A DNA stretch of 64,000 nucleotides from Rhizobium sp. Q54 (GTDB lineage: Bacteria > Pseudomonadota > Alphaproteobacteria > SHVZ01): NCBI GenBank assembly GCA_945871425.1, contig CAMBVS010000003.1, forward strand, positions 1-64,000, given 5' to 3'. Below the pieces are notes generated by a model that worked only from the letters and a program-made list of their open reading frames with translations, made no database searches and was not told where the DNA came from. Both the position numbers and the translations under genes were made by a program. Below are positions 58,824 through 64,000 of the stretch, piece after piece; the first letter of the stretch is position 1; each line of letters begins with the position of its first letter.

Positions 58824-59711
58824 ATGCCCGACGCGATGGACCGTGGAGACGTGCCGGCGCTGCCGGCGACGATCGAGCTCTCGGCGCGGTCGATCGCGGC
58901 CGATCCAGCGGCGTTGGCGCTGATCCCGGCGGCGACCCGGGTCTACCTCGTCGACGCTGGCGATGACCCGGCCGGGCGATGGGCCGAAGCCTGTCTCCGG
59001 CTCGTCCGCGCCGGGCTCGAGCCGGTGCCCCATATCGCCTGCCGGCGCCTTCGCAGCTCCGAGGAGATCGACGAACGCCTCGGGGCCATGGCCGGTGCCG
59101 CCGGCATCCGCGACGTCCTGGTCGTCGGCGGCGACATCGGCCGGCCCCTCGGACCCTTCGCCTCGTCGCTGGACCTTCTCGAGAGCGGCCTTCTCGAACG
59201 CCACGGGATCCGGAGGATCGGCATCGCCGGCCATCCCGAGGGCTCGCCCGATGTGCCGCCGGCGGCGATCGTCGATGCGCTCCACCGGAAGATCGAGCTC
59301 GGCGCCCGCACCGGCCTCGATCTCCGGCTGGTCACCCAGTTCGGCTTCGATCCCGAGGCGACCATCCGCTGGGCCGAGCGGATGGCGGGGGAGGGCATCG
59401 GGCTGCCGATCCATGCCGGCGTCGCCGGCCCGACCAGCATGACCCGGCTCCTCAAATATGCGGCGCTCTGCGGGGTCCGCGCCTCGGCGTCGTTCGCTCT
59501 GAAACGCGGCGCCGCCTTGACCTCGCTGATGGGCGGCTACTCGCCGGAGCCCTATGCGCGGGCGATCGAACGGAGCGACCACATCAAGCAGCTGCATGTC
59601 TATGCGTTCGGAGGCCTGCCGGCCACCGCCCGGTGGTTGGTCGGGCGAGGAACGTGGCGCGAGCGGAGCGAAGCCGTTCTCGCGCTTCAAAGCACCAGGA
59701 GAATGCCGTGA
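58824..59711 (+). CDS. MetF-like methylenetetrahydrofolate reductase family protein
   Basis: The 295-residue protein has the TIM-barrel features of methylene-THF reductase: DVLVVGGDI near 95, RIGIAGHPEGSPD near 132, LRLVTQFGFDP near 168 and a late GLPIHAGVAGP. It is more divergent than housekeeping MetF. In the operon with a methyl-THF-binding protein and a dimethylglycine-dehydrogenase-like enzyme it would reduce 5,10-methylene-THF, or run in reverse. It overlaps the next gene by 4 nt. Confidence 0.83.
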   Translation: MPDAMDRGDVPALPATIELSARSIAADPAALALIPAATRVYLVDAGDDPAGRWAEACLRLVRAGLEPVPHIACRRLRSSEEIDERLGAMAGAAGIRDVLVVGGDIGRPLGPFASSLDLLESGLLERHGIRRIGIAGHPEGSPDVPPAAIVDALHRKIELGARTGLDLRLVTQFGFDPEATIRWAERMAGEGIGLPIHAGVAGPTSMTRLLKYAALCGVRASASFALKRGAALTSLMGGYSPEPYARAIERSDHIKQLHVYAFGGLPATARWLVGRGTWRERSEAVLALQSTRRMP

Positions 59712-60637
59712 CGGATACCGTTCTGCACTCGGCCACGAAAACCGCGGTGATCGGCTTCGGCCGTCCGTTCTGCGTGATCGGCGAACGGATCAACCCCACG
59801 GGGCGGAAGAAGCTGGCCGAGGCGATGATCGCCGGCGACTTCTCCGGCGTGACCGCCGATGCCCTGGCCCAGGTCGCGGCCGGCGCGCTGGTGCTGGACG
59901 TCAACGCCGGGGTCACAGCGGTCGATCCGAACATGACCGAGCCCCCCTTGCTGGCCCGGACCATCGAGCTGGTGCAGTCGCTGGTCGACGTGCCGCTCTG
60001 CATCGATTCCTCGGTGCCGGCGGCGCTGGCTGCGGGCTTGGCCGTCGCCAAGGGACGCCCGCTGGTCAACTCGGTGACGGGCGAGGACGATCGCCTCGAG
60101 ACGATCCTGCCGCTGATCAAGAAGTTCGACGTGCCGGTGGTGGCGATCTCCAACGACGAATCCGGGATCAGCCATGATCCCGACGTGCGTTTTGCGGTCG
60201 CCAGGAAGATCGTCGAACGTGCCGCCGACCACGGCATCAAGCCCGCCGACATCGTCGTCGATCCGCTGGTGATGCCGATCGGCGCGCTCAACAACGCCGG
60301 CTCGCAGGTCTTCCGCCTGATCCGGCGGCTGCGCGAGGAGCTGAAGGTCAACACCACCTGCGGCGCCTCCAACATCTCCTTCGGCATCCCCAACCGGCGG
60401 GTGATGAACGCCCACTTCCTGTCGATGGCGGCGGCCGTCGGCATGACCAGCGCGATCATGAACCCGCTGCACAAGGAGGACATGGACGCGATCCGCGCCG
60501 CCAACACGCTGAACGGCTTCGATCCCGACTGCATGGCCTGGCTCCGGGCCAACCGGGACCCGGCGGCGGGTGGGGCAGCGGCCGCGGCCCGGCGCGAACG
60601 CCGGGGGCGGCGGCAGGGGGGCGAGGGCGGCGCCTGA
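59708..60637 (+). CDS. Methyltetrahydrofolate-binding (pterin-binding) methyltransferase-like protein
   Basis: The 309-residue protein has the pterin-binding TIM barrel seen in MetH and corrinoid methyltransferases: CVIGERINPTGRKKLAEAM near 22-40, LVLDVNAGV, and VNSVTGEDDRLETILPLIKK. It starts at GTG 59708. The last 25 residues are a low-complexity Ala/Gly/Arg tail. It would transfer a methyl group between methyl-THF and an acceptor such as a corrinoid protein, but no corrinoid protein is seen in the window. Confidence 0.85.
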   Translation: MTDTVLHSATKTAVIGFGRPFCVIGERINPTGRKKLAEAMIAGDFSGVTADALAQVAAGALVLDVNAGVTAVDPNMTEPPLLARTIELVQSLVDVPLCIDSSVPAALAAGLAVAKGRPLVNSVTGEDDRLETILPLIKKFDVPVVAISNDESGISHDPDVRFAVARKIVERAADHGIKPADIVVDPLVMPIGALNNAGSQVFRLIRRLREELKVNTTCGASNISFGIPNRRVMNAHFLSMAAAVGMTSAIMNPLHKEDMDAIRAANTLNGFDPDCMAWLRANRDPAAGGAAAAARRERRGRRQGGEGGA

Positions 60638-60700
60638 GAGGTTGCGTTTGCGGCCTGAATTGCCGTATTGCCGATAGCTCAACGTGGTCAGGGGAACCGG

Positions 60701-63112
60701 GTGAAAACCGAAATTCGTGTGGCTGTGATCGGCGGCGGAGTCGTCGGCGCGAGCGTGCTCTATCACCTGACCAAGCTCGGTTGGACCGACATCGCGCTGT
60801 TCGAGAAGCACGAGCTGACCTCGGGCTCGACCTGGCACGCAGCCGCGAGCGTGCACACCTATAATTCGGACGCCAACGTCTCGAAGCTGCAGAAATACAC
60901 CATCGATCTCTACCGAGAGATCGAGCAGATCTCCGGGCAGAGCTGCGGCATCCACGCCACCGGCAACATGGTGGTCGCCGCCACCGATGAGATCTTCGAC
61001 AACCTGAAGCTGATGCATTCGCGTGCCAAGTATCTCGGCATGGAGACGCATCTGATCACGCCCAAGGAGGCGAAGAAGCTCAATCCGCTGCTCGACGACA
61101 CGCAGTTCGTCGGCGCGCTCCACCGTATCGACGGCGGCCATGTCGACCCGAATGGCGTCACCCACGCCTATGCCATCGCCGCACGCAAGGCCGGGGCGGA
61201 GGTCCATCGCTTCACCCAGGTGACGGGCCTCTCCCAGCGTGCCGACGGCACCTGGGACGTCGCGACCGACAAGGGCGGCGTCCATGCCGAGCATGTCGTC
61301 AACGCCGCCGGGCTCTGGGCCCGCGAGGTCGGCCGCATGGCCGGGATCGAGCTGCCGGTGCTGGCGATGGAGCACATGTATGTGGTGACCGAGGAGATCC
61401 CCGAGATTGCCGCCCATGGCCGCGAGATTCTGCCGACGACCGACTATTTCGGCGAGATCTACATGCGTCAGGAAGGGAAGGGCGTGTTGCTCGGCACCTA
61501 CGAGAAGGACTGCCGGGTGTGGTCGCCGCATACGACGCCCTGGGACTTCTCGATGCAGCTGCTGCCGGACGATCTCGACCGCCTCTCGCCGCATCTCGAG
61601 ATCGGCTTCAAGCATTTCCCCGCGGTCGGCCGCGCCGGCATCAGGAAGGTGGTCAACGGACCCTTCACCTTTGCGCCGGACGGCAACCCGCTGGTCGGGC
61701 CGGTGCGGGGGCTCCGCAACTACTGGTCGGCCTGCGCCGTCATGGCCGGTTTCGCTCAGGGCGGCGGCGTCGGCCTGGCGCTCTCGCGCTGGATGGTCGA
61801 TGGCGATCCCGGCGCCGACATCTTCGCCATGGATGTCTCGCGCTTCGGCAGATACGCGACGCACCAGTACACGCTGATCAAGGTTCCAGAGAACTACAGC
61901 CGCCGATTCCGCATCGCCTATCCGAACGAGGAGATGCCCGCCGCCCGGCCGCTTCGCCGGACGCCGGTCTACGACCGTCTGAAGGATGCCGGCGCGGTGT
62001 TCGGCGCGAATTTCGGGCTCGAGGTCGCGCTCTGGTATGCGCCCAAGGGCATGGAGCCGGTCGAGACCCCGACCTATCGCCGCTCCAATGCCTTCCCGAT
62101 CGTGAAGGAGGAGTGCCACGCGGTCCGGCACGCCGTCGGTCTGATGGAGATCTCCGGCTTCGGCAAGTATGAGGTGGTGGGGCCGGATGCGGAGGCCTGG
62201 CTCAACCGGATCCTGTCCAACAAGATGCCGAAGCCCGGCCGCATGGTGCTGGCGCCGATGCTGAACCCGCGCGGCACCATCATCGGCGACTTCTCGGTGG
62301 CGCGCCTCGCCCACGACCGCTTCCTGATGATCGGCTCAGGCGTCGCCGAGATCTACCACATGCGCTGGTTCGAGCAGCATCCGCCGCCTCCTGGCACCTA
62401 TATCCGGCCGTTGCCGCATGCGCTGACCGGCTTCATGATCGCCGGCCCCAAGTCTCGCGAGCTGTTGCAGCGCCTGGTGTTCGAGGACGTCTCTCACCAG
62501 GCGTTCAAGTTCTTCGCCGCCCGCGAGATGGTGGTGGGATTGGCGCCGGCGACCGTGCTTCGCGCCAGCTACACCGGCGACCTCGGCTACGAGATCTGGG
62601 TGACGCCCGACTATCAGGTGACGCTCTATGACGCGCTGGTCGAGGCCGGCCGCGACCTGGGGCTTCGTCACTTCGGCAACCGGGCGCTGATGTCGCTCAG
62701 GCTGGAGAAGGCCTATGGCGCCTTCTTCCGCGAGTTCCGCCCGGACTACACGCCGATGGAGAGCGGGCTCGACCGCTTCGTCGCCTATGACAAGCCGGAC
62801 TTCATCGGCCGCGAGGCGGCACTGAAGGACCGCGCCACGCCGCCGAAGAAGAAGCTGGTGCCGCTGATCGTCGAGACCGATGTCGAGGTCGTGGGATATG
62901 AGAGCGTGATGAAGGGCGACGACGCGGTCGGCCAGGTGACCTCCGGCGGCTACGCCCATTGGGCCGGCAAGAGCATGGCGATGGCCTATGTCGACTCGAC
63001 CCTGGCCAAGGACGGTGAGACGCTGTCGGTCCTGATTTTCGGCAAGGCCTGTCCGGCGGTGGTCGCGACCCAGCCGCTGTTCGACGCTAACGGCGGGCGC
63101 CAGCGCGGATGA
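60701..63112 (+). CDS. Dimethylglycine/sarcosine dehydrogenase-like FAD protein with GcvT domain
   Basis: The 803-residue protein has an N-terminal FAD-binding VIGGGVVGASVLYHL (residues 8-22) and the SGSTWHAAA motif (covalent-FAD His region of dimethylglycine dehydrogenase). From about 430 to the end it has a GcvT/aminomethyltransferase-like domain for THF (SYTGDLGYEIWV and GLDRFVAYDKPDFIGREA). This domain order matches dimethylglycine dehydrogenase. It starts at GTG 60701. It would oxidise an N-methyl compound and pass the formaldehyde unit to THF. Confidence 0.88.
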   Translation: MKTEIRVAVIGGGVVGASVLYHLTKLGWTDIALFEKHELTSGSTWHAAASVHTYNSDANVSKLQKYTIDLYREIEQISGQSCGIHATGNMVVAATDEIFDNLKLMHSRAKYLGMETHLITPKEAKKLNPLLDDTQFVGALHRIDGGHVDPNGVTHAYAIAARKAGAEVHRFTQVTGLSQRADGTWDVATDKGGVHAEHVVNAAGLWAREVGRMAGIELPVLAMEHMYVVTEEIPEIAAHGREILPTTDYFGEIYMRQEGKGVLLGTYEKDCRVWSPHTTPWDFSMQLLPDDLDRLSPHLEIGFKHFPAVGRAGIRKVVNGPFTFAPDGNPLVGPVRGLRNYWSACAVMAGFAQGGGVGLALSRWMVDGDPGADIFAMDVSRFGRYATHQYTLIKVPENYSRRFRIAYPNEEMPAARPLRRTPVYDRLKDAGAVFGANFGLEVALWYAPKGMEPVETPTYRRSNAFPIVKEECHAVRHAVGLMEISGFGKYEVVGPDAEAWLNRILSNKMPKPGRMVLAPMLNPRGTIIGDFSVARLAHDRFLMIGSGVAEIYHMRWFEQHPPPPGTYIRPLPHALTGFMIAGPKSRELLQRLVFEDVSHQAFKFFAAREMVVGLAPATVLRASYTGDLGYEIWVTPDYQVTLYDALVEAGRDLGLRHFGNRALMSLRLEKAYGAFFREFRPDYTPMESGLDRFVAYDKPDFIGREAALKDRATPPKKKLVPLIVETDVEVVGYESVMKGDDAVGQVTSGGYAHWAGKSMAMAYVDSTLAKDGETLSVLIFGKACPAVVATQPLFDANGGRQRG

Positions 63113-63924
63113 GCGACCTCATCGCTAACGCCCGCATGTACTCGGTCGCGCCGGAAGCGGCGGCGGCGTGGAAGCGGCTGTTCGCCTGGCTCAAGGAGCG
63201 GTCGGGCGTCGAGATGACGGTGATCGACCACGCCTTCCCGGCGTCGCTGGACGAGTTGTGGTCGCGGACGGATCTCGCCTGCACCTTCATGTGCGGCTGG
63301 CCGTTTATGCGCTATGGCGCCATCCACCAGGTGGTGGCGGCGCCGATCCCGAGCGCCCCTTATGCCAAGGGGCGGCCGGTCTATTGCTCGCATTTCGTCG
63401 TCCGCGACGACGCGCCGTTCAAGACGCTGGAGGACACCTTCGGCCATCGCTTCGCCTATACGATCCCGGACTCCCATTCCGGCTACAACGCGCCGCGCCA
63501 TCATCTGCTCTCCTTTCGGAAGGGCGGAACCAAGGCTCTCTACCGGGAGATCGTCGGCCCCTTGCGGACGCCGCGGCTGATGGTCGAGGCGATCGTCGAG
63601 GGCAAGACCGATGTCGGTCCGCTCGACTCCTTCGCCTATGCGCTGCTTCGCCGTCACTGGCCGGAGGTCGCCGGCCGTACCCGGGTGATCGCGTCCACCG
63701 ACGTGGTACCTATCCCGGCCTTCATGGCGTCCGCCGGCACATCGCCGGAAATCGTCGACCGCCTCGCCGAGACGCTATGCACCTTCGGCGACGATCCGTC
63801 ACACGCAGCGTTGCGCGAAGATCTTTGCATCCTCGGATTTGCCCGCGTCGCCGAGAGCGAGTACCGGATCACCGAAGACTGGGCCCAGGCCGCGGAGACG
63901 CAAGGCCTCGCCGAGATCGCCTGA
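63109..63924 (+). CDS. PhnD-like phosphonate/phosphate-binding family protein without signal peptide
   Basis: The 271-residue protein resembles PhnD-type binding proteins: ACTFMCGWPFMRYGAIHQVV, YCSHFVVRDDAPFKTLEDTF, FGHRFAYTIPDSHSGYNAPR and VEGKTDVGPLDSFAYALL. It has no signal peptide or lipobox, so it would stay in the cytoplasm. It overlaps the dimethylglycine-dehydrogenase-like gene by 4 nt (ATGA), so it is part of that operon. The role is unknown; it may bind a pathway compound or act as a subunit. Confidence 0.82.
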   Translation: MSDLIANARMYSVAPEAAAAWKRLFAWLKERSGVEMTVIDHAFPASLDELWSRTDLACTFMCGWPFMRYGAIHQVVAAPIPSAPYAKGRPVYCSHFVVRDDAPFKTLEDTFGHRFAYTIPDSHSGYNAPRHHLLSFRKGGTKALYREIVGPLRTPRLMVEAIVEGKTDVGPLDSFAYALLRRHWPEVAGRTRVIASTDVVPIPAFMASAGTSPEIVDRLAETLCTFGDDPSHAALREDLCILGFARVAESEYRITEDWAQAAETQGLAEIA

Positions 63925-63925
63925 G

Positions 63926-64000
63926 ATGCGGGCGCTGCTGCAGGCGATCGAGACGCTCTATCATCCTGCCGCCGATGGCCCGCTTGCGGTCGCCGCGAAG
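63926..64000 (+). CDS. Start of a further operon gene, cut by the window edge
   Basis: ATG 63926 lies one base after the preceding stop (63922-63924) and stays open for 25 codons to the edge (MRALLQAIETLYHPAADGPL then AVAAK). The close spacing suggests the operon continues. No family can be assigned from so short a piece. Confidence 0.5.
   Translation, partial: MRALLQAIETLYHPAADGPLAVAAK

Follow-up and report, generated by a model that had tools for sequence, protein, structure and literature searches.

A leaderless PhnD-like protein encoded in a predicted betaine-catabolism operon of Rhizobium sp. Q54

Gene content of the operon

The window analysed here is a stretch of 64,000 nucleotides from Rhizobium sp. 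Q54 (positions 1 to 64,000 of contig CAMBVS010000003.1, here C3). At its end lie four tightly packed genes, which the first-pass annotation had read as a C1/dimethylglycine operon ending in a PhnD-like protein and running on beyond the window. Domain matches and joins confirmed the four-gene set at 58824-63924 and supported this reading, and the continuation was found to consist of a DMSP-lyase-type cupin gene followed by a GFA gene. Positions given on locus L007 refer to C3:57500-77400.

58824-59711, + strand: MTHFR-like (MetF2-like) protein, 295 aa, divergent; PF02219, 1.8e-12
59708-60637, + strand: methyl-THF:corrinoid methyltransferase (MtgD/MeTr type); GTG start; PF00809
60701-63112, + strand: dimethylglycine-dehydrogenase (DMGDH)-type flavoprotein, 803 aa; DAO, FAO_M, GCV_T and GCV_T_C domains
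63109-63924, + strand: cytosolic PhnD/AioX-fold protein, 271 aa; PF12974, 102 bits
63926-64000, + strand: 5′ end of the DMSP-lyase-type cupin gene, which runs past the window (whole gene L007:6427-7020)
L007:7017-7418, outside the window: GFA protein gene; PF04828; overlaps the cupin gene by 4 nt

Overlaps of 4 nt join the MTHFR-like and methyltransferase genes (59708-59711) and the flavoprotein and PhnD-like genes (63109-63112). A 63-nt gap precedes the flavoprotein gene, for which an alternative TTG start lies at 60668, and the PhnD-like gene is separated from the cupin gene (63926) by 1 nt. Five further genomes from this genus share the overlap of the flavoprotein and PhnD-like genes, and the MTHFR-like gene holds the same operon position in genus relatives. 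In profile searches, the MTHFR-like protein scored far under the TIGR00676 equivalog cut-off, and the methyltransferase exceeded that of NCBIfam PRK07535 (376 bits, cut-off 259). The best PDB match of the flavoprotein was human mitochondrial DMGDH (5l46, E=1e-178, 599 bits, compared with 302 bits for the N,N-dimethylglycine oxidase 1pj5), and the STWHAA motif was kept; this closeness and the DAO-FAO_M-GCV_T-GCV_T_C architecture point to an enzyme of the DMGDH type. The cupin matched PF16867 with 118.6 bits (cut-off 27) and kept the HxH...E...H metal motif in an alignment to 5cu1. It is thus a putative DMSP lyase of the DddQ/DddW cupin type, with lyase activity predicted from these features.

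The absence of transporter partners, claimed in the first-pass annotation, held within the operon but not for its immediate surroundings, because the genes of an entire Opp/Dpp-type ABC transporter, binding protein included, lie convergent directly downstream and are conserved in the genus. A defence function was also considered and rejected, with no PADLOC match.

Predicted betaine-demethylation genes further along the contig

The remaining genes of a predicted glycine-betaine demethylation pathway were found 13-31 kb downstream of the operon (locus L127, C3:77.3-94.2 kb).

L127 region: two MttB-family genes, without in-frame stops
L127 region: MtgC-like corrinoid protein; 204.7 bits with the best MtgC model, NF047996 (cut-off 370)
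L127 region: DUF1638-like protein, named by resemblance and position
L127 region: RamA/AcsV-like activator; scores with the AcsV/RamA models under cut-off
L127 region: MtgE-type homocysteine methyltransferase; PRK07534 above cut-off
L127:4296-5543: DddP-like M24 protein; 430 bits against an equivalog cut-off of 600, E 8e-103 to 4b28
L127 region: soxBDAG-type sarcosine oxidase

Glycine-betaine demethylation by MtgBCDE/MetF2, together with a split methionine synthase, has genetic proof in Ruegeria pomeroyi (PMC12478193). Similar parts recur here, one contig carrying MtgB-, MtgC-, MtgD- and MtgE-like genes, candidates for RamA and DUF1638, and a paralogue of MetF. For the MtgBCD demethylase itself, a PF06253 methyltransferase and a PF02310 corrinoid protein are both present in this genome region, and PRK07535 identifies the MtgD-like pterin-binding methyltransferase. 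The contig set corresponds to the parts list of the MtgBCDE/MetF2 system plus the later steps from dimethylglycine via sarcosine to glycine, and homology and synteny make the assignment to glycine-betaine demethylation very likely. The operon described here differs from the published system in carrying PhnD-like and cupin genes; the main text of PMC12478193 does not contain the terms 'PhnD', 'phosphonate' or 'cupin'.

Several other features of the contig were observed. Two unlike DMSP-lyase-type genes, the DddP-like M24 gene (L127:4296-5543) and the cupin gene (L007:6427-7020), occur together; some relatives in the genus are metagenome bins from lakes, where DMSP metabolism would be unusual. 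Outside the window, at L007:13275-16743 (C3:70774-74242), a 2OG-Fe(II) oxygenase gene precedes the gene of a second DMGDH-like flavoprotein, which shares 58% identity with that of the window and lacks a PhnD-like partner. Also outside the window, at L007:17163-19573 (C3:74662-77072), another PhnD-like protein with a leader-like N-terminus is followed by an overlapping sensor histidine kinase; this pair, which adjoins the MttB genes, is probably an oxyanion-type two-component sensor.

Location, pocket and neighbours of the PhnD-like family

The first-pass annotation had proposed that the PhnD-like protein lacks a signal peptide and that a binding-protein fold is kept inside the cell, and both points were upheld. 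The sole in-frame start is at 63109, and a stop at 63088 lies 14 codons before the conserved R-M-Y motif, so that an upstream start is excluded and the protein cannot carry a leader. Hundreds of relatives were found by tblastn and collection scans, falling into two deep clades, 'MCG' and 'QTCG'. In 60 of 96 homologue loci there is no start codon at least 20 codons upstream of the first conserved motif, making a signal peptide impossible; the extensions upstream in the remaining loci resemble read-through of overlapping genes, and none of the homologues in the neighbourhoods surveyed requires a signal peptide. These results indicate that the family is cytosolic as a whole. Gene fusions that would reveal a partner were rejected, the long frames of some homologues being arginine-rich read-through of other frames.

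Identity with the phosphonate ABC binding protein PhnD was rejected as well: the window protein scored 44.6 bits with TIGR03431 (cut-off 261), has no signal peptide, and no phn genes were seen among the neighbours. It resembles the phosphonate/phosphite-binding proteins PhnD, PtxB and HtxB in fold (TM about 0.75-0.8) and in the Ser-x-Ser oxyanion motif, but has neither their leader nor a phn/ptx transporter. The PhnD-like protein is not a phosphonate transport component.

An AlphaFold2 model (67 homologues in the alignment) reached a pLDDT of 95.7. Its top PDB matches in Foldseek were AioX structures (8ed5/6esv/6eu7, TM 0.78-0.82), then ArrX, PhnD and PtxB, and the sequence profile agreed, with AioX best (E 4.7e-33). 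By fold and profile similarity, the nearest solved relatives are thus the arsenic sensors AioX and ArrX. AioX, ArxX and ArrX are periplasmic arsenic-oxyanion sensors, and the AioX pocket consists of Tyr88, Cys106, Tyr131, Ser161, Ser163, His192 and Asp210 (Badilla et al., 2018, PMC5908839). In the profile alignment these residues correspond to P44, C62, Y92, S122, S124, P155 and D173 of the window protein; five of the seven are kept, with Cys62 aligned to the arsenite-binding C106, and Y88 and H192 are lost, replaced by P44 and P155 (P/A across the family), so that the full AioX/ArrX pocket is absent. The window protein differs from these sensors also in being cytosolic, in having no sensor kinase in its operon and in its betaine-catabolism context. 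Among 72 homologous sequences (27-93% identity to the window protein), 13 positions were invariant (M10, Y11, D55, C62, G63, P65, P79, S122, S124, G125, D168, D173 and T197), including the equivalents of AioX C106, S161, S163 and D210; that of Y131 was kept in 69. The pocket core was identical in every genomic context and the rim positions 64, 123, 126 and 155 varied, which suggests that a common anchor group is bound and that its surroundings vary, as judged from inferred geometry.

The earlier proposal asked whether homologues without signal peptides always neighbour the flavoprotein. They do not. Among 80 database loci, a DMGDH homologue occurred anywhere in seven and was adjacent in four, all from the window's genus, the only one to couple the PhnD-like gene to an adjacent flavoprotein. 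An ornithine-cyclodeaminase homologue was present in 42 of these loci, adjacent and on the same strand in 31; ergothionase-like HAL was found in 16, HutU-type genes in 13, and MttB and cupin genes in eight each, and 36 loci showed none of the onium marker genes searched for. One of the 13 HutU-type neighbours, in Rhodopseudomonas (L059), passes the S-methyl thiourocanate hydratase model. On annotated plasmids, the family adjoins ornithine-cyclodeaminase-family, HutH-like, HutC and betaine-type ABC genes and, for the QTCG clade, desaturase-like genes. The recurrent partners outside the window's genus are therefore ornithine-cyclodeaminase-like, ergothionase-like, urocanate-pathway, MttB/corrinoid and desaturase-like genes. 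The cytosolic family is embedded in ergothioneine/S-methyl-thiourocanate clusters, where it adjoins ornithine-cyclodeaminase-like genes, whereas genes of the HAL, urocanate or ornithine-cyclodeaminase type are absent from beside the PhnD-like gene of the window. A search of the available literature for ergothionase clusters with ornithine-cyclodeaminase or PhnD-like genes found nothing relevant.

Ornithine-cyclodeaminase-like and PhnD-like genes were observed together with hut-type genes in L048, L051-L055 and L058-L062 (Bradyrhizobium, Rhodopseudomonas and Xanthobacteraceae). A further recurrent neighbour of the PhnD-like gene, in L083, L086, L093, L095, L099, L117 and L130-L132, is a 'fatty acid desaturase' family with weak similarity to beta-carotene hydroxylase; MttB or ABC transporters of the betaine type often accompany it.

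The link to the corrinoid system was seen directly in a Hyphomicrobiaceae locus (L044, 62% identical), where a single PhnD-cupin-MtgC-DUF1638-MttB array joins the PhnD-cupin pair of the window to that system. In 289 alphaproteobacterial genomes, MttB occurred in 29 of 34 with a PhnD-like homologue and in 37 of 255 without one (Fisher p about 1e-16, a value that overstates the co-occurrence because the genomes are mutually related and no neutral control family was run). One of the 34, G034, encodes an AioX-like protein with a leader; when it and the window's genus were left out, 26 of 30 genomes had MttB. MttB lay within 15 kb on the same contig in 14 of 28 homologue genomes checked, and this physical linkage is a stronger argument than the p-value.

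Proposed role of the PhnD-like protein

The operon would lie within a catabolic island for onium compounds, with glycine betaine and, probably, DMSP as substrates. Judged by protein family and synteny, the MttB-type methyltransferases would transfer a methyl group from a betaine to a corrinoid protein, the MtgD-type enzyme of the window would pass it on to THF, and the MTHFR-like protein would probably oxidise methyl-THF to methylene-THF. The flavoprotein would convert dimethylglycine to sarcosine, and the soxBDAG sarcosine oxidase sarcosine to glycine. The ligand of the PhnD-like protein is predicted to be, most likely, an onium substrate or product that bears a carboxylate; Ser122/Ser124 would form the oxyanion site, surrounded by Cys62, Tyr92 and Asp173. 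That the protein is a cytosolic ligand-binding protein of onium catabolism is predicted with good confidence. On balance we favour the reading that the operon is part of an onium-compound island in which this protein serves the metabolism generally and not the flavoprotein specifically; the 36 of 80 loci free of onium markers and the replacement of the AioX residues Y88 and H192 weigh against it.

A specific tie to the flavoprotein, as its subunit or as a channel for its substrate or intermediate, had been suggested earlier and is consistent with the 4-nt overlap kept across the genus; the neighbourhood counts and the second, unpartnered DMGDH-like gene of the contig make it improbable. The adjacent Opp-type transporter raises the question of a true transport binding protein that recently lost its leader or is exported in an unusual way, and Opp-type ABC genes do adjoin the family in several loci. 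However, each Opp-type transporter examined has its own binding protein and the leader is missing from both deep clades, which leaves this explanation barely credible. The alignment of the invariant Cys62 with AioX C106 would fit a binder of trivalent arsenicals or thiophilic species freed during the breakdown of arsenic or sulfur betaine analogues, a very improbable role given the replacement of Y88 and H192; in a non-systematic look at the annotated neighbours, none was recognised as an aio, arr or ars gene.

A stand-alone cytosolic sensor deserves more weight, although we consider it rather unlikely. By analogy with AioX, which signals to a kinase from the periplasm, the protein would bind a pathway substrate and signal to a transcription factor of the HutC/GntR or XRE type. 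The nearest solved relatives are indeed sensors, HutC and PhnD genes overlap in L020, L065 and L069, and XRE-type regulators adjoin the PhnD gene in L032/L033. On the other hand, in none of the examined loci was the protein fused to a domain for signalling or DNA binding, the partner regulators vary among loci, and the operon of the window has none. We slightly prefer an enzyme or substrate handler to the sensor, for two reasons: the pocket core, including the cysteine, is constant across pathways of differing substrates, and the genes coupled to the family encode mainly catabolic enzymes, whereas adjacent regulators differ. Taken by itself, a role as a catalytic or substrate-handling component is predicted at a little under even chances. 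More tentatively still, the family may represent an undescribed and widespread class of cytosolic PBP-fold enzymes or metabolite handlers with an AioX-like cysteine pocket, general in the bacterial catabolism of quaternary ammonium and sulfonium betaines, whose range would take in glycine betaine, ergothioneine and probably DMSP.

Few osmolytes of soils and waters are more abundant than betaines. Corrinoid-dependent betaine demethylation in aerobic bacteria was established only in 2025 (PMC12478193). The PhnD-like protein, which recurs beside this route and in ergothioneine-type clusters, may supply a missing step of catalysis, handle substrates or act as a sensor. It offers a clear case of a solute-binding fold relocated to the cytosol, and the vague annotation 'PhnD/SsuA/transferrin family substrate-binding protein' can be replaced by a testable one.
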